Shown here: piece by piece, positions 19,178 through 40,666 of the stretch
How positions within the stretch are numbered: the first letter of the stretch is position 1
Layout: the number at the start of each line of letters is the position of its first letter
DNA from: Candidatus Nitrosotenuis cloacae
GTDB lineage: Archaea; Thermoproteota; Nitrososphaeria; Nitrososphaerales; Nitrosopumilaceae
Length of the DNA: 64,000 nucleotides
Direction of reading: 5' to 3'
NCBI RefSeq assembly: GCF_000955905.1
Contig: NZ_CP011097.1
Coordinates: 186,001 to 250,000 of the forward strand
Notes under the pieces: generated by a model
The model's input: the letters and a program-made list of their open reading frames with translations, nothing else
The model's database searches: none
What the model was told of the DNA's origin: nothing
Translations under genes and position numbers: made by a program

Positions 19178-20722
19178 CTACATAAAGAACCTGTAATGGT
19201 CTTGTACATCTTTATCTTCGGGTAGTTCTGATAAGATATTCCCAACTTCCTTCGCAAAACTTATCGTTATTGGTAGGTTTGTTGAGAAGGATGTTGTGTT
19301 CCAATTCAGCTTTGACAAACCCAGTATCTCCTGCGCAATCTCCTCCTTACTGGAATCTCCATGATGGGTTATCTTTAGTGGGTTGGGAACTCTGAATCCG
19401 GCATAAGTACGAATTCGTGGTGAATATCCAGTAGTATAAAGCAGAAAATTTGTCTTATCCAATTCTATCAATGTGCCTCTAAGAACTGGGTACTTACCCA
19501 TTCTTAGGAAGTTTATTCCGGGATCTCTGGTTGGTATTGCCACGAAATCTTTGATTGTACTTCCCTGAGCATAAATTGCATCATTGAATCCTTTTTGCTC
19601 TCCTTCTGAAAAACCAGATGTTTTGTGGATTACAACTCTTGCAGGTTTTCTGTTGGCTTTGCTGATGTATTTTGCAATAGCTTCTGTCAAAAGCTTTTTT
19701 GCTTGCTCTTCTTTGAGGTATGGTTCTTTAGTATGCTCATCAATTTCAACTTCAGTTCCTCTAAGTACTAATCCCTCACCATTATGGGTGAACACCTGTG
19801 CCATGGAAATCTGCTTTTCCAGTCTTGGATGAAGTTTATCAACAAAAAATGAAATGCCCACATAACATGTATCGGTTCTTAATTTTGCCAATCTCCATGG
19901 CTTCCCATTTGCTTTGTAGTAAAGTGCTGTACTAAAGTTCCATGAAAACGCTGATGGATCCTGATTTTTTGCTTTCTTGATCTTGTCATAGTTTAAGATT
20001 CTTTCACACACACTTTGTTTCAGTATTTGTGTTGGTATACCAAACTCCATTACTTTGCCCTTTAACGAGTTCCTAAAGTCATAGCTTTTCTCTGGCTCCT
20101 TGGCAGGTTTCGGAAAGGTAACACCCCATTCTGTCAGAAACTTTTGATTTTTGGCTACCAGTTCATCATGTTCTTTCTGTCTAGGCGATATTCTGACTTC
20201 TTTTGCTCCTCGAGTCTTTTCAGATATTCCACACCAAGTTTCAACAATAGATGGAAGTGTACAGACTATGACATCAGGTATGTCGTCATTTGCTCGAATC
20301 TGTTTAATTTTGTCTACATATAGCATGACTCCGTAGTTTATTCTTTCGTTGGGGTCTATAATGTCTGGAATTTTTTTCAAATCATAATCATCGATCAGAA
20401 TGGCATTCCAATTGTTTGAGGTTTTTATGTTGCACTTGAACTGAGTAATTGTGGTCATTCCCGGATAGTCTGGATAAAGCCATTTGTTTGACTTCTTACT
20501 GACTGACTCTTGTTGAATTAGCCTCAATATGTTGCACGTAAAATCGATCATTGTCCGGTTTCCAATAATGCCCACTTTGATGCTCTCTAGTGGTGCTGTT
20601 TCATCGGAGTAGAAGTATGGCCCATATCTTTTCAATCCAATTCTGGGGTCTTTGTCTTCACCTTGGTTTCCGAATACCAAGTCAGGTTCTACTATGTATC
20701 TTGCTTGAAGACTAGAATTCAT
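19178..20722 (-). CDS. Short prokaryotic Argonaute (MID-PIWI, catalytically inactive)
   Basis: From the ATG at 20722, which overlaps the upstream gene by 11 bases, the protein is 514 residues, the size of short pAgos that lack N and PAZ domains. The MID part opens with a VEPDLVFG strand, a DPRIGLKRYGPY turn and VGIIGNRTM. The PIWI part has GIPTQ at 228-232, YYKANGKPWRL near 268-278, YVGISFF at 287-293, a GEGLVLRG strand and HKTSGF at 366-371. The first catalytic aspartate is replaced by S291 and the HRD-type aspartate by T368, so guide-directed cutting is not expected. Short pAgos use a guide to sense invader nucleic acid and activate a partner effector. Here the partner is the coupled upstream AlbA_2 protein. 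Confidence 0.92.
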   Translation of the reverse strand: MNSSLQARYIVEPDLVFGNQGEDKDPRIGLKRYGPYFYSDETAPLESIKVGIIGNRTMIDFTCNILRLIQQESVSKKSNKWLYPDYPGMTTITQFKCNIKTSNNWNAILIDDYDLKKIPDIIDPNERINYGVMLYVDKIKQIRANDDIPDVIVCTLPSIVETWCGISEKTRGAKEVRISPRQKEHDELVAKNQKFLTEWGVTFPKPAKEPEKSYDFRNSLKGKVMEFGIPTQILKQSVCERILNYDKIKKAKNQDPSAFSWNFSTALYYKANGKPWRLAKLRTDTCYVGISFFVDKLHPRLEKQISMAQVFTHNGEGLVLRGTEVEIDEHTKEPYLKEEQAKKLLTEAIAKYISKANRKPARVVIHKTSGFSEGEQKGFNDAIYAQGSTIKDFVAIPTRDPGINFLRMGKYPVLRGTLIELDKTNFLLYTTGYSPRIRTYAGFRVPNPLKITHHGDSSKEEIAQEILGLSKLNWNTTSFSTNLPITISFAKEVGNILSELPEDKDVQDHYRFFM

Positions 20723-22193
20723 TCTCTTCCTCTCCTTCTTCTTCCGATTGTTCTTCTTCTGGCTTGAATTCTTCAATGAACTCCTTTATGGTAGATGTGG
20801 GGATATCCCAAGAAATCCCCGTATCTAATTTGGTTTCAACAGGATTTACTGAAATTACCAAATCATCTGAAATCTTTATGTCAGTTCCGTCTCCTAACTT
20901 ATTTATCCAGAACAAAATGTTGTTGAGATACTGATTGTTGAATGTATTGAAAGATTTGCGTGTTATTACCGTGCCTTCTTTCATTCCAGTTGAAACTTTT
21001 TTCCCATCTTCAGTAATTATGGATGTAAGTGCAATTTTCAGGTAAAATTTATCGTTAAGTCTAGTAAATGTGGGCTGTATCGCAGCGTGCCAAAACACCG
21101 AGCGACCAAGCTGTTCCGCCCAAATCTTTTTGGCAACAATTCTACTTGAAACCCCCTTGTATCTGGAAGGCCACGACACTTTGCGTTCGTCGTTGACTGT
21201 ATGATAAAACAATTTCTTGTGTTTTACAAAATATCTCATCTCTTGCTCTTTTCCCTTTCCAGCAACTTCTTTGTTTAACAGAGAAGTTATGATGCGTTCT
21301 TTCGGCCCAGAATCCAACCAATTTTCGATTGGTTCCTTCTTTATCTCATCTGGATAAACTAGATGATGGTGAAAATTGCTAGTATTTTCCAAGTTCTGGA
21401 ATGAAACTATCTTGTCTTCGTGGTGTCTAACTCTAAAGAAAAAGTATCTGGCATCCGGATATTCTTTATCTAACCATCCCTGCAACTCCAACCCATTTTT
21501 GAATTTAGCCGTTCCAATGTAAACAAATTTGGGTAGTTTCTTTACTTCAAACAAATTGCTGAGAAGAGTTTCTTCTACTTTATCCGGCTCACCTGTCAAA
21601 AGAGATAATCTATAGTTCTCATCTTCTAGCCTCTTGTTCATTCGATATATCTCGTACTGTGAAGCTGGGACGCTCTGCGTCCCCCTTCTGATTAAAATTT
21701 GTTCTTTTGTGAACGCCTTTTTTTCTTTACCGTCGATGTTGTAAACACCATCCTTTATTGGAGTCATAATCTTGAAGGATGGTGGAATGTAAATCAACGC
21801 AAATTTTCTTTTTTCTCCATTCACTTCTCTTTCAAATGGGGCATAGAGTATCTCGAGTGGTTTATCCATATACGAGTTTATTTTTTCTTGAAGTGATGCC
21901 GATTCAATTTCAAAATTCTCGGGAAGTCCAGTTTTGATGAAACTACCTTTGATCTCTTTATCTACATGATCGTTTGGTTTGACTCCGAGAACGAGGAAAC
22001 CTCCCCCAGCATTCGTAAATGCGAAAATATCTTTTATTATCTTTGGAAAGTCTGTGGAATTTTTTCCAATATCTAAGGTAGATTTGAAATCGTGGAAAGG
22101 AGTCTCTTTTGATTGAGACAGTAAAAAGTCTATGACATTGTCTCCTAGAGGATCACTTAACTCATCGTTAATTATTACACCATCTTTCTTCAC
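20712..22193 (-). CDS. Schlafen/AlbA_2 domain protein with APAZ-like C-terminus (pAgo partner)
   Basis: The 493-residue protein begins with an AlbA_2 (Schlafen-like) domain. It has an acidic E30/D35/K37 cluster in SKETPFHDFKS, IFAFTNAGGGFLVLGV around 56-71, and ILIRRGTQSVPAS near 167-179. The C-terminal half (about 205-470) has no AlbA_2 character. It carries a SVFWHAAIQPTF segment, a KFYLKIALTS strand, a DG turn and NILFWINKLGD, the pattern I associate with APAZ domains that pair with short Argonautes. The tail is very acidic. The start is GTG at 22191-22193 and its stop overlaps the pAgo start. AlbA_2 is predicted to be the effector, either a nuclease as in Schlafen or a nucleotide-binding module. 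The APAZ call is weaker than the AlbA_2 call. Confidence 0.82.
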   Translation of the reverse strand: MKKDGVIINDELSDPLGDNVIDFLLSQSKETPFHDFKSTLDIGKNSTDFPKIIKDIFAFTNAGGGFLVLGVKPNDHVDKEIKGSFIKTGLPENFEIESASLQEKINSYMDKPLEILYAPFEREVNGEKRKFALIYIPPSFKIMTPIKDGVYNIDGKEKKAFTKEQILIRRGTQSVPASQYEIYRMNKRLEDENYRLSLLTGEPDKVEETLLSNLFEVKKLPKFVYIGTAKFKNGLELQGWLDKEYPDARYFFFRVRHHEDKIVSFQNLENTSNFHHHLVYPDEIKKEPIENWLDSGPKERIITSLLNKEVAGKGKEQEMRYFVKHKKLFYHTVNDERKVSWPSRYKGVSSRIVAKKIWAEQLGRSVFWHAAIQPTFTRLNDKFYLKIALTSIITEDGKKVSTGMKEGTVITRKSFNTFNNQYLNNILFWINKLGDGTDIKISDDLVISVNPVETKLDTGISWDIPTSTIKEFIEEFKPEEEQSEEEGEEENEF

Positions 22194-23045: not shown

Positions 23046-23270
23046 ATGAAAAATACTGCAATGACGAAGAAAGAGGAAAGGGAAGAAGACTTCGCAGACA
23101 AGGTATGGGGGTTTCTCATAGGAAGCAGTTTTGCCGTCCTGAAGATTGTTTTGATTCTCTTTCTGGTATTTCTTGCAATACTAGGATTTCTGTGGCTACT
23201 GAGCCTCCTGTTCCCCTATCTCATCGAAATTGTAAAGAACGCAGTAAAGAACGCTCTTGGAATTGGTTAG
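23046..23270 (+). CDS. Small membrane protein
   Basis: The 74-residue protein has a charged N-terminus (KKEEREEDFADKVWG) and one long or hairpin hydrophobic stretch at about 28-60, followed by a short amphipathic end. It is the first of four tightly packed genes that end with a HerA-like ATPase: its stop abuts the next ATG. A role as membrane partner of the ATPase is suggested by this operon alone. Confidence 0.65.
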   Translation: MKNTAMTKKEEREEDFADKVWGFLIGSSFAVLKIVLILFLVFLAILGFLWLLSLLFPYLIEIVKNAVKNALGIG

Positions 23271-23525
23271 ATGAAATCTCTGAACAAAATCAAGAAGAAA
23301 ATGAAGAAGTGGGTCAAGGACAAGGACGAGAATGTTTCCTTTGCAAGAGTAATTTCACTAGTGCACATAATGATTCTGCTTGCTATCGTTCTTTTTGTAC
23401 TGCTTCTCTTCTGGATCGATTCTGTGTTCGGAATAGAAAACATTGCAAGGATGCTGCAAGAGTTGCTGTCGTTTTTCCAAACAATATTGATTGATAGATT
23501 TGATTTGCTGAAGGCCGGGGTGTGA
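23271..23525 (+). CDS. Small membrane protein
   Basis: The 84-residue protein has a strongly basic N-terminal helix (LNKIKKKMKKWVKDKD) and one membrane helix (VHIMILLAIVLFVLLLFWI). It is the second gene of the four-gene operon and starts directly after the previous stop. The basic cytoplasmic end could contact DNA or the ATPase. No family is recognised. Confidence 0.62.
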   Translation: MKSLNKIKKKMKKWVKDKDENVSFARVISLVHIMILLAIVLFVLLLFWIDSVFGIENIARMLQELLSFFQTILIDRFDLLKAGV

Positions 23526-23527
23526 AG

Positions 23528-23836
23528 ATGGAAAGTCAGGTTGATGACGTAAAACCTGCAAGGAGAAATTATAGCAATTGTGGAATTTGCGGGCTTCCAC
23601 TAGGATCAGAGGCAGTCAGATGCCCTCTCGACGGCAAAATATGCCATCCACAGTGCTCTTCAAAATATTTCGACGAAAGGATAGAGGCGGAGAGGAACAT
23701 CTGCAAAGACTGCAACGCAAGACTGGAAGAGGAGCAGGAAAAAAGACGAATCGAAGACATGATGAAAGCAGCTAAAATCATTTTTGCTCTTGTCGTGATT
23801 TTAGTGGTGTTTTTACTGGTGAGACGATGGCTCTGA
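23528..23836 (+). CDS. Zinc-finger protein with C-terminal membrane anchor
   Basis: The 102-residue protein has a treble-clef-like set of cysteines and histidine: CGICGLPLG, then VRCPLDGKICHPQC, then ICKDCNARLEE. A C-terminal helix (IIFALVVILVVFLLV) anchors it. The ATG at 23528 has a GGGGTG site about six bases upstream; a GTG at 23522 is also in frame. It overlaps the ATPase gene start by 10 bases, so the two are coupled. Confidence 0.68.
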   Translation: MESQVDDVKPARRNYSNCGICGLPLGSEAVRCPLDGKICHPQCSSKYFDERIEAERNICKDCNARLEEEQEKRRIEDMMKAAKIIFALVVILVVFLLVRRWL

Positions 23837-25191
23837 AAGACATTCTGCCTGACAGGATAAAGAAAACTATGATCGATGTTGGAGTTGAGCCTGTGGCGTC
23901 TCCTGTTTTTGGATGGTCTAACAAGGACAAGGTTCTGGTGATAGTGGAAAAAAAGAAGGATCATTACGAGGTATATGGAAACAGGGTCTTCTTTTCCGAC
24001 AAAAAGATGCTGAAGATATCAGAGACTAGGAGAGTCGACGGCGATGATGAGTTGAGAGGCGCAATAATTTCCGTCATCAACAGCGCAGTTAATCAAATGA
24101 TTGAAGGTGTTTCTGTCAAAGATCCATACACCGCAATTGACATGCTTTTCACTGTACAGGAGGGAAGGGACGTTCCGAAACAGGAAATCCTTCCTACAAC
24201 AACACAACAAATCCATGTTTATGGAAATATGATCGGTTACATCTGCGATCAGAATCTTCAGGTCACCAATAACCCGGTTCTACTCTCGGAGAAAATGCTT
24301 CTTCACCATATCATAATCACTGGTTCCACTGGAGGAGGGAAAACAGAAGTCGCAAAAAGAATTGTGACAGAAGTTGAAAAAACCAAAAAGAAAATTCTCG
24401 TCATAACTCCAGAAGCACATCTATGGAATAAATTAGAAAATGTTCACATCCTCGGAGACAATGATTCTGATCTTGAAGACGGAATCAATGTCGTAGATTG
24501 TACAAACGCAAAGGATTTTGCGAAAGAAGCGTCTCATGTGATCGAAAGTGTTATCGAGCATTACGGGAAGATGGAGCAGACGGATAATCTTCGGTTGCTT
24601 GTTGTAGTTGATGAAGCCCACCTTTTCATCGACCAAAAAGATTTTGAAAATGTCCTTGAAAGCGCGACAAGAATTCTTAGGAAATTCGGTGTGTCGTGCG
24701 TTCTCCTGTCACATACTTATGCGGATTTCAGCAGAGGAATCCGTTCTAACGTCCAGACTCACATCGCACTTTACACCAATTGGGCAAGAGATCTTTCATT
24801 CATCAAAGCATTCCAAGCTGACGGTACGGTTGATTATTCCAAACTTCTGCTCTCGATGCCGGAAGGATATGGGATCTTCAGATCACGAGAATTCCTGAGA
24901 AATCAGCCCGTGCCGTGCAGATTCTTGAAATGCTATGAAATGATGTATCCAAACATAAAACAAGATATTTCGATAGACGACCAATATCAAAGACGGTTAG
25001 CAATTCTAGAAATAATCAAAGATAACCCAAAGATCTCCGCCGAGGAAATATCGTCGAACATGGCAAAAAGAAGCATTTCTGTGGCTAACAGTACGGTTTC
25101 GAGGGATCTGGATTGGCTAGAAAATCAGGACTTGATTACCGTAGTTGACACAAGCGGAAAAGGAGGAAGGAAACTGTATGTCGCTATTTGA
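23827..25191 (+). CDS. HerA/FtsK-like ATPase with C-terminal winged helix
   Basis: The 454-residue protein has Walker A GSTGGGKT at 166-173 and Walker B VVVDEAH at 259-265. The order and spacing resemble HerA (DUF87) DNA-translocating ATPases, including an NVQTHIALYTNW sensor-like segment. The C-terminus (about 390-450) is a winged helix with KISAEEISSNMAKRS. It follows three small membrane or zinc proteins in one operon, as expected for a membrane-associated DNA pump used in transfer, segregation or packaging. No NurA nuclease is adjacent, so a repair role is less likely. Confidence 0.82.
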   Translation: MALKDILPDRIKKTMIDVGVEPVASPVFGWSNKDKVLVIVEKKKDHYEVYGNRVFFSDKKMLKISETRRVDGDDELRGAIISVINSAVNQMIEGVSVKDPYTAIDMLFTVQEGRDVPKQEILPTTTQQIHVYGNMIGYICDQNLQVTNNPVLLSEKMLLHHIIITGSTGGGKTEVAKRIVTEVEKTKKKILVITPEAHLWNKLENVHILGDNDSDLEDGINVVDCTNAKDFAKEASHVIESVIEHYGKMEQTDNLRLLVVVDEAHLFIDQKDFENVLESATRILRKFGVSCVLLSHTYADFSRGIRSNVQTHIALYTNWARDLSFIKAFQADGTVDYSKLLLSMPEGYGIFRSREFLRNQPVPCRFLKCYEMMYPNIKQDISIDDQYQRRLAILEIIKDNPKISAEEISSNMAKRSISVANSTVSRDLDWLENQDLITVVDTSGKGGRKLYVAI

Positions 25192-25207
25192 AAACTCGAA
25201 AAAACCT

Positions 25208-25262
25208 AACTTTTGCAGCAAAAGTTCAACTTTTTCATGCAAAAGTTCTGCAAAAGTAACTT
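25208..25262. repeat. GCAAAAGTT inverted and direct repeats
   Basis: AACTTTTGC-A-GCAAAAGTT at 25208-25226 is a perfect inverted repeat. It is followed by further copies of GCAAAAGT at about 25239 and 25250 and by AACTTTTT. The cluster lies between the ATPase stop and the next zinc-ribbon gene. It may be an operator or a terminator. Confidence 0.6.
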
Positions 25263-25283
25263 TGTGTTAAATGAGGTGATTCA

Positions 25284-25451
25284 ATGCCAAGGGTTGTAAA
25301 GATAAAGTGGGTTTGCGAAACTTGCGGGGCAGAAATCATAACACGGCCCCGGACGGTTCCGTACGCCGATGAACCTAACAGAGGAATGTGTCCAATCTGC
25401 GGAAGTTCGTCATCGTTAATCAAAAGAGAAGAAATCTTCGAAGTTCTCTGA
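25284..25451 (+). CDS. Small zinc-ribbon protein
   Basis: The 55-residue protein has two CxxC knuckles, WVCETCGAE and GMCPICGSSS, spaced to bind one zinc ion, and a charged C-terminus (IKREEIFEVL). An AGGTGAT site six to ten bases before the ATG is a Shine-Dalgarno sequence. It heads a run of three short plus-strand genes that ends in convergence with the second recombinase. It probably binds nucleic acid. Confidence 0.7.
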   Translation: MPRVVKIKWVCETCGAEIITRPRTVPYADEPNRGMCPICGSSSSLIKREEIFEVL

Positions 25452-25461
25452 GGATGATGCA

Positions 25462-25743
25462 GTGGAAGAACTGGGCGAGAGGGTATCAGAATACATTTCC
25501 GACAGGAAAATCAGCTTCGATGGAGAATGCTATCACTCACGCATTCCGCTGGAAATTATGAAAATTGTCATACAGTATGGAGTTAATCTGAACAGTGTTC
25601 AATGGGAAGGGGTTTGGAAAGACGGAAATAAACTCCATGTTGTTTTGTCGTTCAAAATGGCAGAAGCTGCGAAACAATCCAAATCAGAAACTATTCCAGA
25701 AGAAAATAATCCGGAAAAAGATTACGTTGTCCTGAAAGGCTGA
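25462..25743 (+). CDS. Hypothetical protein
   Basis: The 93-residue protein starts with GTG and has an alpha/beta pattern: ERVSEYISDRKISF, then VQWEGVWKDGNKLHVVLSFKMAEAA. The C-terminus is polar and acidic. No motif is recognised. It lies 10 bases after the small zinc-ribbon gene and 2 bases before the next ORF, so it is probably co-transcribed. Confidence 0.55.
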   Translation: MEELGERVSEYISDRKISFDGECYHSRIPLEIMKIVIQYGVNLNSVQWEGVWKDGNKLHVVLSFKMAEAAKQSKSETIPEENNPEKDYVVLKG

Positions 25744-25745
25744 CT

Positions 25746-25892
25746 ATGGGAATGTTTACAAAAGAAGAATTGGAAAACGTGCTGAAAGAGACTGCATCTA
25801 AATTCAAGCACATTGAGCCTCACGTAATTCTGCTGATTTACGGATACATAAAAATGAAAAAACTGGAAAAGAAGAAATCACAATTGAGCTAG
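25746..25892 (+). CDS. Very small helical protein
   Basis: The 48-residue ORF encodes a mostly helical product with KEELENVLKETASKF and a lysine-rich end (KMKKLEKKKSQ). It starts two bases after the previous stop and ends in a 4-base convergent overlap with the recombinase gene. Tight packing supports expression; function is unknown. Confidence 0.5.
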   Translation: MGMFTKEELENVLKETASKFKHIEPHVILLIYGYIKMKKLEKKKSQLS

Positions 25893-27139
25893 CCTTTTTC
25901 AGCAAGACTGTCAAGAAAAGCATTTGCGTTTGGGTGTATCTTGATAAGTTCTTCAAACTTGCTCTTGATTATCTTCTTAACCAAACCTTCAAGGACTTCC
26001 GGGGTAATCATATCCGTTACCGCTTTGATGTCCTTCACCCTTTTCTCATCAATGTCAATTGCAATTTTCACCTCAAATGGTTTTGCGCACTTCTTGCACA
26101 CTAACGCAGTAACCTCATTCCATTCCTGGCATATCTGGCAAACCTTCGGCTTCAACAGGCTCTCTTTCTTGGTTTTAGTCTCCATGCCACACATTTCCAG
26201 AAGGGAGCCTTCGGTATCCACCCCCGTAAGATGGTCATAGATCTGCGACATCCTAGAATTCTTTACCCAACCCATGTACACGCATCGTTGCGATTGACCC
26301 ATCCACATTCCAAGTACGGTGGCACGCGCATGGCGAAAACTGTGTGGATTCACTCTTTTTGTTATTCCAGCTTTGTTTGCAGCCCGCTTGAGCAACGCTG
26401 AAATCATCTCGTATTTCATAGCCTGCCCGTGATTGGGATGTCCAATGTTTATCCAGAGGGGGGATTGTGGGTTGTTTTTCTGGGGATGAACGTTTATCCA
26501 AGCAGCAAGATACGGCGCTGATGCAAGCAGCCTTATCGGTCTCTGCCCTGTTTTTCCGTCGACAAGTATCTTGATTCCCAAATCATCAAAAATCACATCT
26601 TTGATATCAAGACTGGCAAGTTCTCCGACCCGGCAACCGCTTTCCGCAAGGGTCATGATTAGTGCCCTATTCCTCGGATTCCCTTCGGCTTCTATCATCT
26701 TGATGATATCTTGCTCTGTGAGCAGATCCCAAGGATATTCCATTTTACGCAAGTTTGTTTTAATCTGCCTTACAAGCTCGGGGTAATCCTCCCCGCCATT
26801 CAGCCATTTGTAGAGTTTCTTTATCGACACTTTGAAGAATTGCTTTGTGTGCGGTTTGATGTTCTGCGCTTCAATTGAAATCAGCAGCCTTTTGATATCG
26901 CCTTTCTCTGCCCTGTCAAAATCCTTTTCCAGCCACTCAGCAATTTTACGAAGTGTGAAGGCATACGTACCTACTCTCGGGATGCTCAGAGGTTCCCCCC
27001 ACCCAGCCCCGTCTATCTGGCAATCTGCAATGAAATCGAGGATGATCTTCTTGTTCTGCTCTGAAATCTTTGTTGACTCTTTTACCAGACTTATCGCTTT
27101 TGCAAGGCGCTTTTTGCATTCGTAGATGTCCCTTTTCAT
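25889..27139 (-). CDS. Second tyrosine recombinase (XerCD-like) with C-terminal zinc ribbon
   Basis: From the ATG at 27137-27139, with a GAGGTGTG Shine-Dalgarno site just upstream, the protein is 416 residues. The N-terminal SAM-like core-binding domain spans about 20-130. Catalytic residues are R170 in SGCRVGEL, K196 in DGKTGQR, H266 and R269 in PHSFRHAR, and Y301 in SQIYDHL. After the catalytic domain a zinc ribbon (VCQICQEW and VCKKCAK near 333-352) and a helical tail follow. It differs strongly from the tRNA-site integrase. It may resolve element dimers or act at the inverted-repeat region just upstream. Confidence 0.9.
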   Translation of the reverse strand: MKRDIYECKKRLAKAISLVKESTKISEQNKKIILDFIADCQIDGAGWGEPLSIPRVGTYAFTLRKIAEWLEKDFDRAEKGDIKRLLISIEAQNIKPHTKQFFKVSIKKLYKWLNGGEDYPELVRQIKTNLRKMEYPWDLLTEQDIIKMIEAEGNPRNRALIMTLAESGCRVGELASLDIKDVIFDDLGIKILVDGKTGQRPIRLLASAPYLAAWINVHPQKNNPQSPLWINIGHPNHGQAMKYEMISALLKRAANKAGITKRVNPHSFRHARATVLGMWMGQSQRCVYMGWVKNSRMSQIYDHLTGVDTEGSLLEMCGMETKTKKESLLKPKVCQICQEWNEVTALVCKKCAKPFEVKIAIDIDEKRVKDIKAVTDMITPEVLEGLVKKIIKSKFEELIKIHPNANAFLDSLAEKG

Positions 27140-27210
27140 AACACACCTCTGACCCGACCACGTTTTCCACCATCTATTGATTAGTGGGATTCGTTTCCGT
27201 TTAAACAAAA

Positions 27211-27402
27211 CACGAACGGTTCCGTTCGGCTGGATTTACCGACGAGCCGGATTTCACTTTTTGTCAAATCCGGGATGTTAGAGAACTGAACTTGGGGTCT
27301 TGGTCCCGGGACTGAAGACGACAAGCACAGTTGAATTACCCAGATTCCGTACGGTTTTGTTTTACGTCGAATCTTTTCAAACCGTACTGTTCAGTACGGT
27401 TT
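27211..27402. repeat. Inverted-repeat cluster upstream of the second recombinase
   Basis: The 288-base non-coding gap contains several perfect palindromes. CGAACGG-TT-CCGTTCG is at 27213-27228 and CCGGATTT/AAATCCGG with an 11-base loop is at 27247-27273. GTCCCGGGAC is near 27303-27312 and CCGTACGG is at 27347-27354. AAACCGTACTG-TT-CAGTACGGTTT, with 11-bp arms, is at 27379-27402. The sites share ACGGTT/AACCGT. This density suggests a recombination site, operator array or replication origin. Confidence 0.7.
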
Positions 27403-27427
27403 TGCTAATCTATTCTTGTGAGCGAAA

Positions 27428-27820
27428 TTATTTATCCTTGAAATGTCTGGCTTTATCCAACTGTGCCTTCAAACTATCAATGTCGAATTGCTGCACAGCG
27501 ATCCTGTTTTTGTAAGAAACTCCAAACTTTTCTTCGTCATGCATCATGGAATGCAGTTTTGCGTCTTTGTTTGCCATCTCAATTTCCATTTTGCTGATTT
27601 CTGAAGCAGAATAATGACGATGGTGTGTTATCTCAATCTGATCAAGTTCTTTGTACAAATCCGTAATCTTGCGCCCATAATAGCGGACATCCGCCTTGCC
27701 CGTGGAGACCCCCATATCCAAATCAAAAGCAGCACTGGATAGTTTTATGTCATAATGCAGAATCTTATTTTTTATCTCTGAAATCTCTTTTTCGTAGTTC
27801 ACATGGTGACCATGTCGCAT
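27428..27820 (-). CDS. Coiled-coil protein of unknown function
   Basis: From the ATG at 27818-27820, with a GAGGTGGG Shine-Dalgarno site upstream, the protein is 130 residues and almost wholly helical. Heptad-like segments include KEISEIKNKILHYDIKL and LDSLKAQLDKARHF-type sequence at the C-terminus. There are many histidines (HGHH, HHRHY) but no clear metal site. It heads a minus-strand group downstream of the recombinase's inverted-repeat region. Family unknown. Confidence 0.6.
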   Translation of the reverse strand: MRHGHHVNYEKEISEIKNKILHYDIKLSSAAFDLDMGVSTGKADVRYYGRKITDLYKELDQIEITHHRHYSASEISKMEIEMANKDAKLHSMMHDEEKFGVSYKNRIAVQQFDIDSLKAQLDKARHFKDK

Positions 27821-27910
27821 AACCCACCTCGACCGCAATATTTTCTTCTAATTACTAATTGGTAATGATAAAATAAATACAAAACTGAGTTTTCAAACAA
27901 CTTGTTAACT

Positions 27911-28264
27911 TTATTTTGAAAACTCATACGCTTGTCTAATCAAAGAAATTGCATACTCCAACTCCTCCATCGAATTGATGTAGAAGTAATGTGGAGGACT
28001 CCATTTCATCTGTTTTACGATTCCTTTAGGGTCGGAAAACGTCTTCGGATTTACTCTTATCCATGCCTTTATGCTTTTGCTGTTTATCCGCATGGAGGCA
28101 AAGACTTGTTTCGCCTCGTATCTGATTTCGTATTTTGTCGCCCGTTCTTTGACATCGGAACCGAAAGCCGTTATCCTCTTTTTCAGTTCTTCAAAGATTC
28201 TCTGGGTTTCTTCTTTCGTCCCTTTCAGGCTGTTTTCTACTCTGTAGCCAATGTTCAAACTCAT
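27911..28264 (-). CDS. DUF5655-like protein
   Basis: The 117-residue protein matches the pattern of the DUF5655 domain: a helix (IFEELKKRITAFGSDVKE), then ATKYEIRYEAKQVFASMRI, a WIRV strand and a Y-I-N-SMEELEYAISLIRQAYE ending. The family is found alone or next to restriction and type IV systems, and its biochemical role is not known. It forms a minus-strand run with two or three other small genes and has a GAGGTGA site before the start. Confidence 0.7.
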   Translation of the reverse strand: MSLNIGYRVENSLKGTKEETQRIFEELKKRITAFGSDVKERATKYEIRYEAKQVFASMRINSKSIKAWIRVNPKTFSDPKGIVKQMKWSPPHYFYINSMEELEYAISLIRQAYEFSK

Positions 28265-28274
28265 CTAAATCACC

Positions 28275-28403
28275 TCAAATTTCCTTCTCAATGCATTCTC
28301 TGCATACGACTCTGCCATTCTGCTTGTTGGTAGACAATTCGCAGTCTATGCCACACTCATCGCAGACTATTAGTCTCCATTCCATCGGTATGTCTTTTCC
28401 CAT
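28275..28403 (-). CDS. Very small zinc-ribbon protein
   Basis: The 42-residue ORF has two CxxC knuckles, IVCDECGID and VVCRECIEK, typical of a minimal zinc ribbon. A strong GGAGGGGTG Shine-Dalgarno sequence lies before the ATG at 28401-28403. It sits between the DUF5655-like gene and a winged-helix gene with short gaps, so it is part of the same transcription unit. Confidence 0.68.
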   Translation of the reverse strand: MGKDIPMEWRLIVCDECGIDCELSTNKQNGRVVCRECIEKEI

Positions 28404-28407
28404 CACA

Positions 28408-28635
28408 TCACCCCTCCTTGAGTGACCAGACGCCACTCCCTTTCTCTTTCTGGCAAAACAGACCGCTTAACTGGACGACCTGTCTTACTTTGGCTTCTAT
28501 GTTCTTGTTGCGTCCTAGTTTTTCAGAGTCTTTCTTTTTTGCTACCTTCTTTGTTTCCTCGTAGAGTTGCGACAGGCTTGCAGACCCTCCAAGGTTTTTC
28601 ATTGCCTCTTCCACCAACTTAACCCATGTTGGCAT
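28408..28635 (-). CDS. Winged-helix (HARE-HTH-like) protein
   Basis: From the ATG at 28633-28635, seven bases after GGAGGTG, the 75-residue protein has the HARE-HTH pattern: TWVKLVEEAMKNLGGSASLS, LYEETKKVAKKK, a helix with NIEAKVRQVVQLSG, and a final GSGVWSL strand. Domains like this occur in restriction enzymes and chromatin proteins and probably sense or bind DNA. A GTG nine bases upstream is an alternative start. Confidence 0.7.
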   Translation of the reverse strand: MPTWVKLVEEAMKNLGGSASLSQLYEETKKVAKKKDSEKLGRNKNIEAKVRQVVQLSGLFCQKEKGSGVWSLKEG

Positions 28636-28776
28636 TCCGAACACCTCCCTGTCTTGAACTTTCTAGAAGATTATAGAACTAGTAAATTGAAATAACCAAC
28701 TGGCTGCTTTCTTTAACTTTCTGTAAGTTTCTAGAATGATAAATCCTTGCTCGGACAAATACAATTAGGTAGTTCC

Positions 28777-28914
28777 ATGGCTTTCAAAATCGGAATCTCT
28801 GGAGATGAGAAGTTGTGGAAGCAGTTTCAGGAGTATTGCAAATCAAAAGGATATGATGCTTCCAAAAGAGTAATGGTTCTGATTAAGGAAGATGTGGACA
28901 AGAACTCAAAATAG
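28777..28914 (+). CDS. Small ribbon-helix-helix-like protein
   Basis: The 45-residue ORF begins with a short strand (MAFKIGIS) and has two helices (EKLWKQFQEYCKSKG and DASKRVMVLIKEDVDK), the order of a CopG/Arc-type ribbon-helix-helix DNA-binding unit. It is divergent from the minus-strand small-gene group and could regulate that group or the ATPase gene downstream. The 180-base gap after it shows only TATA-like AT tracts. Confidence 0.6.
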   Translation: MAFKIGISGDEKLWKQFQEYCKSKGYDASKRVMVLIKEDVDKNSK

Positions 28915-29096
28915 AATGGTAAGCCAAGCTAATACCTATTTGTTTTCAGAAAAAAACCAACGAGAACAAAGCTATTGGATTCGCAGGAATACGGAGCAAT
29001 TGTAAATTTCATAATAATTCCCTTTATTAGTTCCCAAATCGCCTCCCAAAACCTTATCATTTTGTTTCCCGTTTTCTATGATGGCGACCTTCTGGT

Positions 29097-31469
29097 TTGG
29101 CATCAATATCTCCCACATGGGAACAAGTTGGGACGCTTCGCTACGGTAAGATCCGCTCAGAGATTTACTGGGTAAGAAGCAGCAACGCAACCATTGAAGT
29201 TTTGGCTTTGGCAGATGATGTTTACCTACTTCGTGGAGCCAAGAATTACTACGTTGCCAATGCCTCGGACTCCGGGGAAATGCAAAGCAGATTACAGGAA
29301 ATAGGGACTTTTTCCGATTACCTCAAAGAATCCGTCCCGTCCTTTAGCCTGAGCTACTATTACATTAGTTCCCTTACCGAGGGAATCATCGGCGTAGATA
29401 GTTCCCCGATTAGAACCGAGATTGGGGAACTAAAGCGTGGCATACTACACAAGCAGGGGAAGATAGCATCTTTGGAAAGTGATAGACAATTGCTCAATCT
29501 CCCCGTCGGTAAGGATGCCCTAAGTCTGGAATCCGAAATAAGACGCTCTGAAGAGAGGCTGCGGAAACTCGAAGAAGAGGTTGCCAATGCAGAACAATTC
29601 AAGAGAGAATACGGATCAAAGGGATTTGGTGCTTCCGTCGTCATAAAGAGCCAGACTTCCTGTTTTTCCTCAAGAAAGGCGGATCTGGAAAAGACCATGC
29701 AATTGATAATCAATGATCTTGAAGATTTTGATAATGTAATCAAGAACCGGGCTAAACATGGCTTCTACCTTGCCATCAAGGAGCTGCCCAACCCTGCACT
29801 GGGATACAGCGCAGAGTCTTTGGGCATCTTCGATCCTCACACTCTGGAAGATTTGATAAAACAATATCCTGAGCTTTCAGAACTGAAAAACCAAGTTGAC
29901 TCTCTTTTCGTTCATCGTTGGGCTAAGGATGCTAGGATCGGGGAAAGGACGTTTGAAAAGAGTTCTGCAATAGCGCAGGGCCTTGCAACTCTTCTTAGAA
30001 GAGCGACTTTGAAATCGCAAACGCAGACGAAAGTCAACGAACCCAAATGGGATAAACTTCCATTCCCCGACGAAACAAAAAGGCTGGGTTTTCTGGGTTT
30101 TGTTTTAGACGGCCATCTTGAAACAACGAAATTCCCGTTTCTTTTTGATTATGACAATCAGGCTCCTACTCACACCATAATCGTGGGTGCAAGCGGATGC
30201 GGAAAGACGATTACTGCTTACGATATGGCGGAAGGTGCGCTATTCCAGAATATTCCGGTTTTGGTTCTCGATCCTATGATTCAGTGGTCTGGCTTCCTCG
30301 AAAAATGCAGTGAAAAGAAGCTTCTTGACGGTTACAGGGAGTTTTCCATGCATGAACCCATGTCATTCACTGGTAAGATATTCACTCCCGGCTCTGACAT
30401 CGGAGCAAATCTAAGCAGCAACCTTCTGGCAAAACCAAAGACCGACAAGGAAAGCGAACTTCAGGCGTTTGCCATTGACCTGAGCATGATAATCAAGGAA
30501 TTCTGCAAATTAAGCGACAACGAAACTGTAAAAGTGAAAGAGACTGTCTTCGGATGCTGGAAGAAAGGGATCGATTTGGATTGCTTTTCTCTTATCAATG
30601 CCACTGGCAAAGAAATCGCAAAGATGAAGATTCAATCGCTCACAGCACTTTCATTTTTGTTTGAGGGAAAAGGATCGAACATTTCTGAATTGTGGAAGGA
30701 CGGAGAGATCTCCGTTGTATCCCTCAATGAAATCAAAGTGGATGAAGTGAAAATGTTTGTCGCATATTATCTTGTCAGGGAGCTTGTAAACTACTTTGAC
30801 TCGCAGCCTGACTCGAACACCTTGAAACTTCTGCTTGTAGTTGAAGAGTATCACAGGTTCAAAGGAGAGGCAAAGATTATTCTCGATAGAGCTGCAAGGA
30901 CGCTACGAAAAAAGGGAGTCGGATTAGTTTTCATCACTCAAGCGATAACAGACTTGGAAGAAACCAGAGCAAACATCAACATGAAAATCTACATGCACAT
31001 GACATACGACAATGACATTGAAAGATCTAAGATAGACTTGGGAAACGATGTTTCTAAACTCCTTTCGACAATTGATTCGGGGTTCGGGATCTGCGTTTAT
31101 CCCAGCTATGAAACCCCTGTAGTAGTGAAGTTCAGGCCGTGCTTTCACAGGAATACTGGCTTATCATCGGAGGAGATCAAGAGCAAAATGATGATGTGGA
31201 GTGAAAGGGACGTTTCAAAATTCTACAAGGTTGAAGAAAAACAAGAGATACCTAAAGAAGTCACTAAAGCGATGCAGTTCCTAAATGAAATAATCTCATA
31301 TCACAATGAGACCGGAAAATCCCCCAGAAGGGAAGACATAGTGAAAAGGCTTGGGATCAAATCGGATCGTGTTGCAAACGAAATCAAAAATCAACTCATC
31401 AAAGAAGGAAAAATTAGAGAAGAGCCTGACCCTGACGATAAAAGAGCCAAAAGACTGGTTCCAGTCTAA
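29097..31469 (+). CDS. Large HerA/VirB4-like ATPase with coiled coil and winged helix
   Basis: The 790-residue protein has an N-terminal beta-rich domain, a long coiled coil (about 105-215), then a P-loop ATPase with Walker A VGASGCGKT at 363-371 and Walker B LLLVVEEYHRF near 578-588. It closes with a winged helix (PRREDIVKRLGIKS). The catalytic EEYH in place of DEAH is unusual. It resembles element-borne DNA-pumping ATPases such as HerA, VirB4 and TraG. The start is a TTG at 29097 with no strong Shine-Dalgarno site; a nearby ATG pair is in another frame. It is the second such ATPase of the element and is convergent with the next gene. Confidence 0.8.
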   Translation: MASISPTWEQVGTLRYGKIRSEIYWVRSSNATIEVLALADDVYLLRGAKNYYVANASDSGEMQSRLQEIGTFSDYLKESVPSFSLSYYYISSLTEGIIGVDSSPIRTEIGELKRGILHKQGKIASLESDRQLLNLPVGKDALSLESEIRRSEERLRKLEEEVANAEQFKREYGSKGFGASVVIKSQTSCFSSRKADLEKTMQLIINDLEDFDNVIKNRAKHGFYLAIKELPNPALGYSAESLGIFDPHTLEDLIKQYPELSELKNQVDSLFVHRWAKDARIGERTFEKSSAIAQGLATLLRRATLKSQTQTKVNEPKWDKLPFPDETKRLGFLGFVLDGHLETTKFPFLFDYDNQAPTHTIIVGASGCGKTITAYDMAEGALFQNIPVLVLDPMIQWSGFLEKCSEKKLLDGYREFSMHEPMSFTGKIFTPGSDIGANLSSNLLAKPKTDKESELQAFAIDLSMIIKEFCKLSDNETVKVKETVFGCWKKGIDLDCFSLINATGKEIAKMKIQSLTALSFLFEGKGSNISELWKDGEISVVSLNEIKVDEVKMFVAYYLVRELVNYFDSQPDSNTLKLLLVVEEYHRFKGEAKIILDRAARTLRKKGVGLVFITQAITDLEETRANINMKIYMHMTYDNDIERSKIDLGNDVSKLLSTIDSGFGICVYPSYETPVVVKFRPCFHRNTGLSSEEIKSKMMMWSERDVSKFYKVEEKQEIPKEVTKAMQFLNEIISYHNETGKSPRREDIVKRLGIKSDRVANEIKNQLIKEGKIREEPDPDDKRAKRLVPV

Positions 31470-32725
31470 CCGTAAGGATTGCGTGATTTCAGGCTGTCCA
31501 TGAGTGCGTAGAAAGTCCTTTCCCGTCTTTCCATTGCTTTTTCAAGAAAAGTCCGATATCTCTCCTTTGCCCTTTCAACCTCAACTTCATCGTAAACTGG
31601 AAGGTAACGATCTTCATCGTCGTCCTGCTTCTCCTCTACTAATTCTCTTATCCTGCTTCCTTTTTTGGCCCGGCTGAGCGAATCGATTTCCATCTCATCA
31701 ACTACCAGCTCAAAAATTTCTTTTGCAAGTTCCTCTTGCATTGAATGTGATGCTCTTTTGGCCGCATCAAGATTTCTTTGTTTTGACTCGTTGTCATAAG
31801 CAAGATATGCCTGACACAATATGATCAGCGGGTATGCGGAGCTTTGTATCGATCCTCTTCCTAGTTCAAGAGAACGCAAGGCGTCCTGAAAATGGCTTTT
31901 GTTTTTCTCAAATGCGCCTTTACACATAGAGATGTAAGCTTCGATTGCGTTGACATCTTCATGGGCTTGCACCTTTCGGTGTCTTAGGGAATTAGCATCT
32001 GAAGACCACACAATCTCTTTTCTGTACTTTTCTCTTAATCCTTCAAGAAGCCTTAACGCCTCTAGGATGTCTACGGATGATGTGTGCGATGGGTTTGCCA
32101 TCGATGAACGGCCAGCACGCTTCGGGATTTTAGCAATTCCTAATCTTCGTTCCATATCAAAAGACCTAAGCACGTCGTTCATCTCCTTCATTTCTTCGAC
32201 TGGCATGAACTGGTTCACTCTTCTCTTCCCCTTTATCGCATCTTTCAATTGCGCAAAGACTACCGGAGCTTCAAGCCCTGTCTCTGCTCCCTGATGCCTT
32301 TTTGCAAGCGTTGTAAAAGCGACCAAGCTTATGAGATGTGCAACTCTGCATTCATTCTCGTCCCTGTCGTTCCAGTCATCGTACGCTCTGTAATAATCGC
32401 CGGGGAACGTGTTTTTGGCGTTCTGTATCAACGATTCATAGATTCCGCTTCTTCTTGAGAACTCGGAGTTGAAAGACGAATCCATGTAAGAGAAATGCCT
32501 GAGCATTTCAAGACATGCGATTCCGCAAAGTATGTCGTAGTTTAACGTGGAATTTTTTGCAGCGTCGTCAATGCACTCCAGCAGATTCTTCTTGAAATCT
32601 GAAATATCGCCTTCCGGCTTCTGATTTCTTGGAGGTTTCCAGCCTGCTGGCATTGACCCTCTGGATACTACAGGATTAACTTCGTCTTTTTTCTTGAACC
32701 AGCCCAAATTTGCAATATTATACAC
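31466..32725 (-). CDS. Hypothetical helical protein
   Basis: The 419-residue protein is soluble, rich in charged helices, and has no known motif. Its middle (EALRLLEGLREKYRKEIV and NAIEAYISMCKGAFEKNKSHF) could form TPR-like helical pairs, and its C-terminus has an acidic EEKQDDDEDRYLP stretch before ERAKERYRTFLEKAMERRERT. It overlaps the ATPase gene by 4 bases tail to tail. A scaffold role with the ATPase is possible but not shown. Confidence 0.6.
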   Translation of the reverse strand: MYNIANLGWFKKKDEVNPVVSRGSMPAGWKPPRNQKPEGDISDFKKNLLECIDDAAKNSTLNYDILCGIACLEMLRHFSYMDSSFNSEFSRRSGIYESLIQNAKNTFPGDYYRAYDDWNDRDENECRVAHLISLVAFTTLAKRHQGAETGLEAPVVFAQLKDAIKGKRRVNQFMPVEEMKEMNDVLRSFDMERRLGIAKIPKRAGRSSMANPSHTSSVDILEALRLLEGLREKYRKEIVWSSDANSLRHRKVQAHEDVNAIEAYISMCKGAFEKNKSHFQDALRSLELGRGSIQSSAYPLIILCQAYLAYDNESKQRNLDAAKRASHSMQEELAKEIFELVVDEMEIDSLSRAKKGSRIRELVEEKQDDDEDRYLPVYDEVEVERAKERYRTFLEKAMERRERTFYALMDSLKSRNPYG

Positions 32726-32794: not shown

Positions 32795-33358
32795 GTGATT
32801 TCATTGGTAGAGCGAAAGACTAACTGGCGTTATTTTGGGCCTTACCTGATAGGTGGCGGCATCTTTCTTGCCATGTTGGGTGTTGTTATTGATTTTTCAG
32901 ATGTTTGGTCTATAGAACAACATTATCCACCGTTTGATGTAACAGCAGATAGTAACAGCTATGTTTCCTTCCTTTTAATGCATACCGAAAAACTCGAAAT
33001 ACATATTCTCATAAGTGGCGGTAACCAAAAACTGATTTATTACATAACGGACGCTAAAAACGTAATTCTGATAGATAAAACTCCAATATCCAATGATCAA
33101 CGGTTCGCCTTTCAACCACGTTATGATGGAACGTATTTCTTGCTATTTGAAAATGAGGGTGGTAGACCTGAAACAAAGACAGTTACAATTACTTATGCGG
33201 TAACTGATGCAAGTGTTTTAGTTCCAGACCATCTAAGAGGATTTGTAATCTTGGTTTTGGGTTTCATTTCCGTTGCTGGTATTGGGATTTCATTACGAAA
33301 CTCATTCAAAAAACCAGAAAGACCGGGTACAAAATCAGAGAAACCCGGCGGTGAATAA
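32795..33358 (+). CDS. Two-helix membrane protein with extracellular domain
   Basis: The 187-residue protein starts with GTG, has an N-terminal membrane helix (PYLIGGGIFLAMLGVVI), a beta-rich external domain of about 105 residues, a second helix (LRGFVILVLGFISVAGIGI) and a short cytoplasmic tail. The tail ends in KPERPGTKSEKPG, the same motif that ends the next gene. Membrane layout is clear, function unknown. Confidence 0.65.
   Translation: MISLVERKTNWRYFGPYLIGGGIFLAMLGVVIDFSDVWSIEQHYPPFDVTADSNSYVSFLLMHTEKLEIHILISGGNQKLIYYITDAKNVILIDKTPISNDQRFAFQPRYDGTYFLLFENEGGRPETKTVTITYAVTDASVLVPDHLRGFVILVLGFISVAGIGISLRNSFKKPERPGTKSEKPGGE
33308..33349 (+). repeat. Duplicated tail segment (copy 1 of 2)
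   Basis: A 41-base stretch encoding KPERPGTKSEKPG recurs at 33842-33882 with one mismatch. Within it CCGGGT and ACCCGG are inverted with a 14-base loop, so the coding repeat can also form a hairpin at the RNA level. Confidence 0.75.
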
Positions 33359-33420: not shown

Positions 33421-33897
33421 ATGGTAACGTATGATGAATTTTACAAAATGGAAAAAAATGAATCAGACAAATCGAAGGACACCGACTTGATATTTTTCAT
33501 TAAAGTTGCAAAAGAAGCTCTTAAACCATTGATAAAATATCCATTATCAACAAATGATATTTACGATCACGTTAACCAGAAAAATTTCAAGATACCGACA
33601 GAAGAATTCAATAGGCTCATGAACTCATTAGTCGATAAAGGCTTTATTGAAAGTAGGACACAAGACGAAATTTCATATTTTGGTTTTCCAGATGAAAAAA
33701 ATAAAAAAAGTTTTGAGTTGGACTATTTCCCAAAATGTAATGAAACGAAACTCCCGCTAGATGAAAGAGATGGACTTGGGCATGCAGTTAAACAATATTT
33801 TGATTACATAAAGGGTGAACGTCGTCTTGATGAAGTAAAACAAAAACCAGAAAGACCGGGTACAAAACCAGAGAAACCCGGCAAGCCTATATTCTAA
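33421..33897 (+). CDS. Hypothetical protein with helix-turn-helix-like middle
   Basis: The 158-residue protein is polar. Residues about 25-80 (FIKVAKEALKPLIKYPLSTNDIYDHV and EFNRLMNSLVDKGFIESR) have the order of a winged helix. The C-terminus ends with KPERPGTKPEKPG, the same tail as the membrane protein upstream, so the two may have exchanged DNA by recombination. It overlaps the next gene by 11 bases tail to tail. Confidence 0.58.
   Translation: MVTYDEFYKMEKNESDKSKDTDLIFFIKVAKEALKPLIKYPLSTNDIYDHVNQKNFKIPTEEFNRLMNSLVDKGFIESRTQDEISYFGFPDEKNKKSFELDYFPKCNETKLPLDERDGLGHAVKQYFDYIKGERRLDEVKQKPERPGTKPEKPGKPIF
33842..33882 (+). repeat. Duplicated tail segment (copy 2 of 2)
   Basis: This is the second copy of the 41-base segment, again containing the CCGGGT/ACCCGG hairpin, at the 3' end of the downstream gene. 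Confidence 0.75.
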
Positions 33898-34693: not shown

Positions 34694-35812
34694 TCACCGT
34701 ATATCACTAGGCTCTTCATTGATTGTTAGATGTTGAGCTTTTCTTCCAGCCTTTACGATCTCTTCCCTGCTAAGATGTTGATGCAATACGATTTTTGCCA
34801 TCTCTATGCTTCTTCGAATCAGATCCTTTGCCCCATTTTTTAGATCATCACTTTCTGCAACGTAAGCGATGTTGCGTTCCATGTCTTCTGCATCCCAACC
34901 TCGCGTATGTGCGATAAATGGGAATGTGGGAAACACAAATCCAAGCTCTGAAAAAAAGCCCAGCATGTGGCCTGCAACGTCCTGTACATTATCCTGTCCT
35001 CCAGTTATGATGAATGAAGCAACCTTGTTTTGGATCAAAACTCTGTTGTTTATTGTGATCTGGTTCTGAACACAATTCATTCTCTCAATCATTTTGTGGT
35101 ATAGCGAGCTTGCGGCGCCCCAGCGGATAGGCGTTGCAACAATTACTACATCTGCCCAATAAATTAACGCTTCATACACCTGAGCAAGTTGATCTGTCTC
35201 ATCCATTTGAGTAATGGAACAAGGCCAAGTGCAAGCAAAAGCACTTTTAGAGTAAAACCCCTCACATGCCCTGAATTTGAGATCGTTTAGTCTAATGAAC
35301 ATGGTCTGGGCTGAGAGCTCATTTTTTGCATAATCAATTGCTACTTCAAGCAATTTATCCGAAGTCGAATAGCGCGGATTTTTAGAGTCCATTATAGTAG
35401 TTGATATCCCAACGACCCTGATTGGCCCTTCCTCTCGTTTGATTGGCCTTTCAAGTTGGTGAGGCGGATGCGCACTTTTGTGTACTTTGGTTATTGGATT
35501 AGTATCGATGAAAAGATGATTATTTTTAATTTTGAGTTCATACTGAGGTACTTTATCTTCATATCCTGGCGGAGCAGAACCTGTTACTCTGTGGAACTGC
35601 CAATAATGCCATGGACAGACGATATGATCTCCGTCTATCTTTCCCTTTCCTAGTGGTCCTCCAACATGAGTACAAACTCCCAAGATGGCGCCAAATTGCT
35701 CATCCTTGTAAGATAATGCAATTGGTTTTCCTTGGACAGAAATCTCTCTGAGTGGAGGATCTTTTAGTGAATCTACTGAACCAAGATCAAGCCAATTTTT
35801 TTCCAACATCAT
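34694..35812 (-). CDS. Rieske ferredoxin domain fused to flavodoxin-like NAD(P)H:FMN reductase
   Basis: The 372-residue protein has an N-terminal Rieske domain with C47-T-H49 in VCTHVGGPLG and C66-P-W-H69, which bind a 2Fe-2S cluster. Residues about 130-370 form a flavodoxin-like NADPH-dependent FMN reductase, with VVGISTTIMDSKNPRYS for phosphate binding and VATPIRWGAASSLYHKMIERM. Fusion of a Rieske donor to a flavoprotein suggests a self-contained reductase. It is divergent from thioredoxin, with octamer operators between them, so it belongs to the redox-stress group. Confidence 0.88.
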   Translation of the reverse strand: MMLEKNWLDLGSVDSLKDPPLREISVQGKPIALSYKDEQFGAILGVCTHVGGPLGKGKIDGDHIVCPWHYWQFHRVTGSAPPGYEDKVPQYELKIKNNHLFIDTNPITKVHKSAHPPHQLERPIKREEGPIRVVGISTTIMDSKNPRYSTSDKLLEVAIDYAKNELSAQTMFIRLNDLKFRACEGFYSKSAFACTWPCSITQMDETDQLAQVYEALIYWADVVIVATPIRWGAASSLYHKMIERMNCVQNQITINNRVLIQNKVASFIITGGQDNVQDVAGHMLGFFSELGFVFPTFPFIAHTRGWDAEDMERNIAYVAESDDLKNGAKDLIRRSIEMAKIVLHQHLSREEIVKAGRKAQHLTINEEPSDIR

Positions 35813-35859
35813 ACACAGCGTTTGAGATTAAAAAAGCCTTACCCCGAGATATAGTAAAG

Positions 35860-35889
35860 TTTGGAATCTATTTGGTAATCAATTGGTAA
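35860..35889. promoter_or_regulatory. Tandem octamer operator, thioredoxin/Rieske promoter
   Basis: Three octamers, TTTGGAAT, TTTGGTAA and ATTGGTAA, start at 35860, 35871 and 35882, exactly 11 bases apart with 3-base spacers. TATA-like CTATTAAG follows, about 25-30 bases before the thioredoxin ATG. The array lies between the divergent Rieske-flavodoxin and thioredoxin genes. Confidence 0.7.
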
Positions 35890-35922
35890 AACTATTAAGA
35901 ACATTGCTGTAATCTAGTGTTT

Positions 35923-36282: not shown

Positions 36283-36298
36283 TTACTTGTTTGCAGAA

Positions 36299-36784: not shown

Positions 36785-36818
36785 GGCTGTAATTAAGAAA
36801 TAATAGTTTATAATATTT

Positions 36819-36837: not shown

Positions 36838-36856
36838 TTGTTTCTTTGAAGTCGAT

Positions 36857-37297: not shown

Positions 37298-37331
37298 AAA
37301 TAATATAAACTAGATTTTGTGTTATCCTGTA

Positions 37332-40664: not shown

Positions 40665-40666
40665 AT

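Follow-up and report, generated by a model that had tools for sequence, protein, structure and literature searches.

The ATPase operon and its mobile island

The window analysed here, a stretch of 64,000 nucleotides (nt) from the 1.62-Mb single-contig genome of Candidatus Nitrosotenuis cloacae (C1:186001–250000; other positions are those of the window unless prefixed C1), carries a mobile island encoding two HerA-like ATPases, which we refer to as A1 and A2. The genes present and their relatives are in keeping with an ammonia-oxidising archaeon of thaumarchaeal type. A preliminary description of the locus had recognised both ATPases, and suggested that they might form a DNA-transfer or partition machine of a new kind, distinct from the HerA-NurA pairs of DNA repair. 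The genes and sites at the centre of our analysis are the following (aa, amino acids):

23046–23270, plus strand: small membrane protein, 74 aa, hydrophobic span 19–64
23271–23525, plus strand: small membrane protein, 84 aa, hydrophobic span 21–59
23522–23836, plus strand: zinc-finger protein, 104 aa, seven cysteines, C-terminal transmembrane (TM) helix (77–104)
23827–25191, plus strand: ATPase A1, 454 aa; N-terminus 1–130, HerA-type core 132–375, predicted winged helix 386–450
25208–25258, no strand: five half-sites GCAAAAGTT/AACTTTTGC in mixed orientation, candidate docking or operator site
29097–31469, plus strand: ATPase A2, 790 aa; N-terminal strands, predicted coiled coil 139–228, core 328–684, predicted winged helix 720–790

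The first four genes follow one another without gaps, in that the genes for the 74-aa and 84-aa proteins abut, with overlaps of 4 and then 10 bases at the two later junctions. Codon scores were positive for the 74-aa, 84-aa and A1 genes and near zero for the zinc gene, with negative scores for overlapping control frames. Together with the hydrophobic spans and the cysteines, this head-to-tail arrangement bears out the earlier view that one ATPase follows three small membrane or zinc proteins. We found no relatives of the small proteins in phage records, the PDB or IMG/VR.

Structure models and motifs also agree with the initial assignment of both ATPases as HerA-like. A1 has the Walker A motif GSTGGGKT and the Walker B motif VVVDEAH, and the model of its core (residues 129–372), in which the predicted local distance difference test (pLDDT) is mostly 80–95, resembles HerA at VIA Z 25–27 over ~230 residues. 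This core is compact, with ~90 residues from Walker A to Walker B and without the helical insert of HerA, and is similar in size to B204 of Sulfolobus turreted icosahedral virus and to the 462–471-aa CedB proteins of two other genomes (G392 and G427). Residues 386–450 match the Pfam families FUR (E 4e-6) and Arg_repressor (E 4e-5), which points to a winged helix that the preliminary description had not credited to A1; the structure model is poor in this region and in residues 1–130. A2 has the Walker A motif GASGCGKT and, as described before, EEYH in place of DEAH within its Walker B motif LVVEEYH. Its modelled core keeps the insert, unlike the compact A1, and resembles DndH and HerA at Z 24–26 over ~290 residues. 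The coiled coil and winged helix previously proposed for A2 both reappear in the model, the former as long helices at residues 139–228 with low confidence and the latter at residues 720–790 with pLDDT of 70–80. The A2 N-terminus is modelled poorly, and the protein has no membrane segment.

Both ATPase genes lie inside an insertion at a tRNA gene, defined by these features:

10639–10727, plus strand: intron-containing tRNA gene, the integration target (Rfam RF00005, 58.3 bits)
10634–12082, minus strand: integrase 1, an open reading frame (ORF) over the tRNA end
10720–10735, plus strand: attL candidate CCACCAGACCCGCTAA, 16/16 identity with 44529–44544, at the junction of the empty site in G015
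44529–44544, plus strand: attR candidate, 16-bp direct repeat, placed by empty-site comparison with G015

The tRNA anticodon, read by eye, is CTT (Lys), and a 16-bp copy of the tRNA 3′ end is found again at 44529–44544. In a genome of the same genus (G015), the sequence of window positions 8694–10731 runs straight into that of 44529–46751 with a 16-bp overlap, forming an empty site, and the 33.8 kb between the repeats is therefore a mobile insertion. In another relative (G013), this tRNA is followed by unrelated sequence that includes an integrase-like gene. Integrase 1 has no Pfam match and is labelled from inspection and its position over the tRNA. Separately, an imperfect second copy of the tRNA end, CCACTAGACCCGCT, lies at 10782–10801, ~70 bp inside attL; the 20 bp around it equal the attR flank with one mismatch, and may be the trace of an older or tandem integration.

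Placement among HerA-superfamily ATPases

A RecA-type core, Walker A, HerA-type Walker B and R-x-x-G place A1 and A2 in the HerA superfamily, and the G, K, E, R and G columns are invariant across both proteins and 17 relatives, with E-E for D-E in A2. The best solved folds for both are HerA and DndH, including antiphage HerA complexes. In profile comparisons, the nearest group to A1 was CedB of G392 and G427 (E 1.6e-14), which adjoins a CedA homologue (E 1e-23), and the nearest to A2 was a YjgR-like ATPase group (E 1.3e-15), followed by CedB (E 1.3e-10). CedD and CedB were also among the top NCBIfam matches, far under their cut-offs (CedD, cut-off 600: 37.6 bits for A1 and 51 bits for A2; CedB, cut-off 700: 39.1 bits for A2). 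FtsK_SpoIIIE reached 16.7 bits against A2, under a cut-off of 24, and the best families were HerA-type. In a 40-row tree, A1 and A2 form a pair (99/97) outside the HerA (100/100), CedB and VirB4 clades. Their sisterhood is weakened in that, when either ATPase is removed, the other moves elsewhere without support, and long-branch attraction is possible. In approximately unbiased (AU) tests, in which the branches are long, a grouping of both together with HerA was not rejected (p 0.31), and a grouping of A2 alone with HerA was rejected (p 0.03).

The HerA-type fold and the AU test that does not reject both grouping with HerA would be consistent with A1 and A2 being extra copies of the HerA-NurA machinery for end resection in DNA repair, a role that we regard as highly improbable. 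The canonical HerA lies with Mre11 and Rad50, recognised by inspection, at C1:542688–544331, the only NurA follows ~3 kb on at C1:547114–547734, and no island protein scanned matched NurA; in addition, neither ATPase clusters with HerA in the free tree, and the AU test speaks against A2 as a HerA by itself. Because the host HerA-Mre11-Rad50 locus and the only NurA are elsewhere, 330 kb away, A1 and A2 fall outside the repair pair, which leaves standing the original proposal of a machine separate from it.

No close relatives of either protein were found among 60 relatives, and none of A2 among 250 family genomes or of A1 among 300 class and 398 phylum genomes; IMG/VR, two GTDB scans, INPHARED and PLSDB likewise yielded no close relatives, and all that we obtained were HerA matches at the level of the core. 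Matches of ~800 aa in L026–L029 were considered as relatives and rejected, as they have the ATPase core alone in common with A1 and A2. Genomes of the same genus or family (G008, G009, G013, G023 and G144) do encode a distinct HerA-like ATPase of 579–613 aa that starts with a zinc ribbon. Small zinc-finger genes directly precede it in L088 and L013, and in three same-genus genomes it has near it a tyrosine recombinase of ~400 aa together with a Cdc6-like ATPase. Makarova et al. 2014 (PMC4158269) listed HerA-like ATPases with the genes that occur most often in the dark-matter islands of archaea, and, taken with the ATPases of these related islands, this indicates that HerA-like pumps are common tools of archaeal mobile elements. 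The dark-matter-island ATPases of arCOG00280 and those of L013 and L085–L088 share with A1 and A2 a HerA-like pump on an integrated element with small zinc proteins and a tyrosine recombinase nearby. The zinc-ribbon ATPases (L013, L085–L088) differ in forming a separate, strongly supported clade and in having a long C-terminal extension that A1 and A2 lack. The present island stands out in having two HerA-like pumps, each predicted to end in a winged helix, and an operon with membrane proteins.

The zinc-ribbon ATPases are conserved in thaumarchaea (L013:3451–5289, L086:8635–10473, L087:9356–11125 and L088:1985–3811). By eye, their C-terminal extension appears to contain a winged helix and a PD-(D/E)XK-type nuclease; it has no Pfam match.

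Candidate roles of the two ATPases

In the comparison with archaeal conjugation that was proposed earlier, one of the closest known systems is Ced, the crenarchaeal DNA-import system derived from type IV secretion systems (CedB/CedD with CedA/CedA1). The likeness lies in a HerA/VirB4-like ATPase, with CedB as the nearest profile to A1, in small two-helix membrane proteins and in archaeal hosts; in size and hydrophobicity, the 74-aa protein would suit a two-helix pilin of the VirB2/CedA1 type, although neither it nor the 84-aa protein matched CedA1. Unlike in Ced, no CedA/VirB6 channel was found in the island, and C-terminal winged helices are predicted features of A1 and A2. A TM scan of the ATPase region revealed no polytopic protein of VirB6/CedA size, and the whole genome contains no match to TrbL (PF04610, VirB6) at E<=1 or to VirB4 (TIGR00929) at E<=1e-10; a very divergent CedA could escape both the TM scan and the TrbL search. 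As VirB6 and VirB4 are undetected, a type IV secretion system is unsupported, and this part of the comparison did not hold.

The closest working parallels are TraB of Streptomyces and TdtA of Thermus. The resemblance to TraB is one of working: an integrative element with a tyrosine integrase has one pump, whose DNA-recognition domain is C-terminal and whose partners are small membrane proteins. TraB differs from A1 and A2 in belonging to the FtsK rather than the HerA lineage, in the clt-like octamer repeats, which were not found in the island, and in that its membrane part lies in its own chain. TraB is a hexameric double-stranded DNA (dsDNA) pump, and its element also encodes Spd proteins, one of which has been shown to be integral to the membrane and to interact with TraB (PMC5365140, PMC4170104). 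TdtA, a hexameric ATPase of HerA type, is encoded by ICEth1, an element that excises itself and also has genes for a restriction enzyme and for a site-specific recombinase (PMC5365140). It resembles the present case as a HerA-type ATPase on a mobile element with a recombinase. TdtA has an adjoining NurA-like nuclease and no detected DNA-binding domain, whereas here we find predicted winged helices, small membrane proteins and no NurA match.

Based on these two parallels, we tentatively favour, at somewhat less than an even chance, the reading that A1 and A2 are element-encoded dsDNA pumps of the HerA superfamily for transfer or segregation of island DNA. Element mobility, the HerA-type folds, the predicted winged helices, the CedB profile, the tight operon with TM proteins, the phased palindromes, the modules of sister islands and the lack of a NurA match among the island proteins scanned support it. 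A more specific form, an archaeal transfer machine free of a type IV secretion system, in which a winged-helix pump of HerA lineage, three tiny membrane tethers and a second, coiled-coil pump would move dsDNA in the manner of TraB, seems to us unlikely. What follows is inferred, from the assembly of a ring and its anchoring in the membrane to the recognition of DNA, the substrate and the direction of movement. A1 would form a ring on the membrane, held there via the three small proteins, and its winged helix would find the element, possibly through the phased palindromes that lie immediately 3′ of its gene. After excision, A1 would push the island DNA toward or across the envelope, while A2 might work on this DNA in the cytoplasm, by loading it, processing its ends or using the coiled coil to segregate it. 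The pumps would work as TraB or TdtA does and would not rely on a complete type IV secretion system.

The half-sites lie at 25208, 25218, 25228, 25239 and 25250, a spacing of 10–11 bp that places them on one helix face directly 3′ of A1. Their density, five per 70 bp, compares with at most two in 20 shuffles; because the motif was picked after viewing the sequence, we take the array as a lead and not as a clean test. A terminator at this position was considered and rejected, as the hairpin is not clearly better than shuffles (z -1.64).

Several observations weigh against the element-pump reading. The palindromes could merely be an operator, A1 and A2 are near-orphans in the collections searched, and neither the small proteins nor the N-terminus of A1 has a fold that we recognise, the models being poor there. 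HerA and DndH structures score above those of FtsK and TcpA. No replication gene was recognised in the island, nor any known pilus or VirB6 channel. Finally, the island also encodes type I restriction-modification, a short Argonaute and a DUF5655 protein, and the best PADLOC matches of A1 are MADS mad8 and defence HerA.

These last points bear on the main rival role, in which the island would carry one or two antiviral defence systems as cargo, with A1 and A2 as their motors. A ring of HerA type would sense or thread invading DNA, a nearby partner would act as effector, and the small membrane proteins would kill or sense. We consider this possible but somewhat unlikely. It draws on the defence genes of the island (type I restriction-modification, the short prokaryotic Argonaute (pAgo) with its APAZ protein, and DUF5655), on the PADLOC matches of A1 to mad8 (E 1.5e-15) and defence HerA (E 6e-14) and of A2 to mad8 (E 2e-10), and on the antiphage HerA complexes and DndH among the top solved folds. 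Defence HerA, DndH and mad8 do share the fold of the ATPase core with A1 and A2, but the matches are confined to this common core, and neither ATPase has beside it a recognised partner nuclease or effector of these systems, whether nuclease, SIR2, DUF4297, NurA or Dnd/Ssp. The defence HerAs described so far differ in their N-terminal domains and, to our knowledge, lack a C-terminal winged helix, which also counts against this role. The 419-aa protein encoded at 31466–32725 may be an unrecognised defence partner.

Partition or resolution of the element would involve a recombinase gene and a second palindromic site located between the ATPase genes:

25889–27208, minus strand: integrase 2, tyrosine recombinase of XerA/XerC/D type (Pfam PF00589, E 8e-17)
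27345–27404, no strand: perfect inverted repeat of 11 bp with a third half-site, in the region upstream of the integrase 2 gene, candidate operator or recombinase site

Here A1 and A2 would act like FtsK, their winged helices reading sites in the island and uniting dimer sites for the XerA-like recombinase, with the small proteins tethering the ring. The gene order fits, as do the phased palindromes, which lie near A1 and next to the recombinase gene, and a C-terminal winged helix recalls FtsK gamma. Nevertheless, A1 and A2 are HerA-like and not FtsK in sequence, none of the island proteins scanned matched a ParA or ParB profile, and our search of the island yielded no convincing clustered exact 7–9-mers, clt-like octamer repeats or over-represented, strongly polar octamer; we judge this reading quite unlikely.

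A provirus remnant, with A1 as packaging ATPase and the small hydrophobic proteins as virion membrane or spindle-type capsid proteins, is improbable. The A1 core aligns with B204 at a TM-score, relative to the target, of up to 0.76, and its match to Pfam Pox_A32 (22.7 bits) lies just under the cut-off of 22.8. Spindle-shaped viruses of ammonia-oxidising archaea, for which a family has been proposed, have as core genes those for an ATPase, a zinc-binding protein and a capsid protein with a helix hairpin (PMC10866085). On the other side, HerA, DndH and VirB4 structures score above B204, no match was found in phage genomes or IMG/VR, and PHROGs and Pfam gave no match to a profile of a capsid or other virion protein. 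The claim of the preliminary description that capsid genes are absent thus stands at the level of profiles, although the small two-helix proteins may still be virion proteins. We know of no winged helix on typical packaging ATPases, a further point against a viral origin.

Most integrated elements of Thaumarchaeota are classed as cryptic (PMC6563490). If the element-pump reading is true, an element-borne pump with built-in DNA recognition and few, small membrane partners would offer a concrete candidate for the way in which elements of this archaeal group pass between cells in the absence of a recognisable conjugation apparatus, with a candidate docking site at 25208–25258 and defined ends.

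Neighbouring genes and minor features

Two small genes follow the A1 palindromes:

25284–25451, plus strand: zinc-ribbon protein, 55 aa, from sequence and translation
25462–25743, plus strand: 93-aa protein with no assigned function

Integrase 2 also matches NCBIfam XerA (E 9e-27; 94 bits, under the cut-off of 220) and has a weak match to a C-terminal zinc ribbon. Near the left end, 12481–12939 (minus strand) encodes a membrane-anchored protein with a weak match to PF10107, an archaeal endonuclease family related to Holliday-junction resolvases (23.0 bits; cut-off 23.8). An oxidative-stress block at 34694–42706 comprises a Rieske/FMN reductase, thioredoxin, MsrA, a Dps-like ferritin, thioredoxin reductase, a cupredoxin and MsrB. 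A 41-nt repeat, 98% identical between 33309–33349 and 33842–33882, encodes the KPERPGTK-EKPG tail shared by two adjacent, otherwise unrelated genes, one for a GOLD/emp24-like membrane protein and the other for an F-93 winged-helix-like protein.

Among the defence genes, type I restriction-modification was recognised by inspection of the ORF list, and the DUF5655 protein (27911–28264, minus strand) matches the candidate defence family PDC-S18. The short Argonaute (pAgo_I, E 2e-146) and its APAZ partner lie at 19178–22193 (minus strand). The N-terminal domain of the partner is a Schlafen AlbA_2 domain, instead of SIR2, TIR or a nuclease, and an AlbA_2-APAZ protein with 59% identity (L085:4849–6330) is encoded beside a comparable Argonaute in another island from this genus. 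AlbA_2 domains have been recorded beside pAgos before, and APAZ partners have been named with DUF4365, SIR2, TIR, or SIR2 fused to Schlafen (PMC6299218). The AlbA_2-APAZ protein is a candidate effector type.

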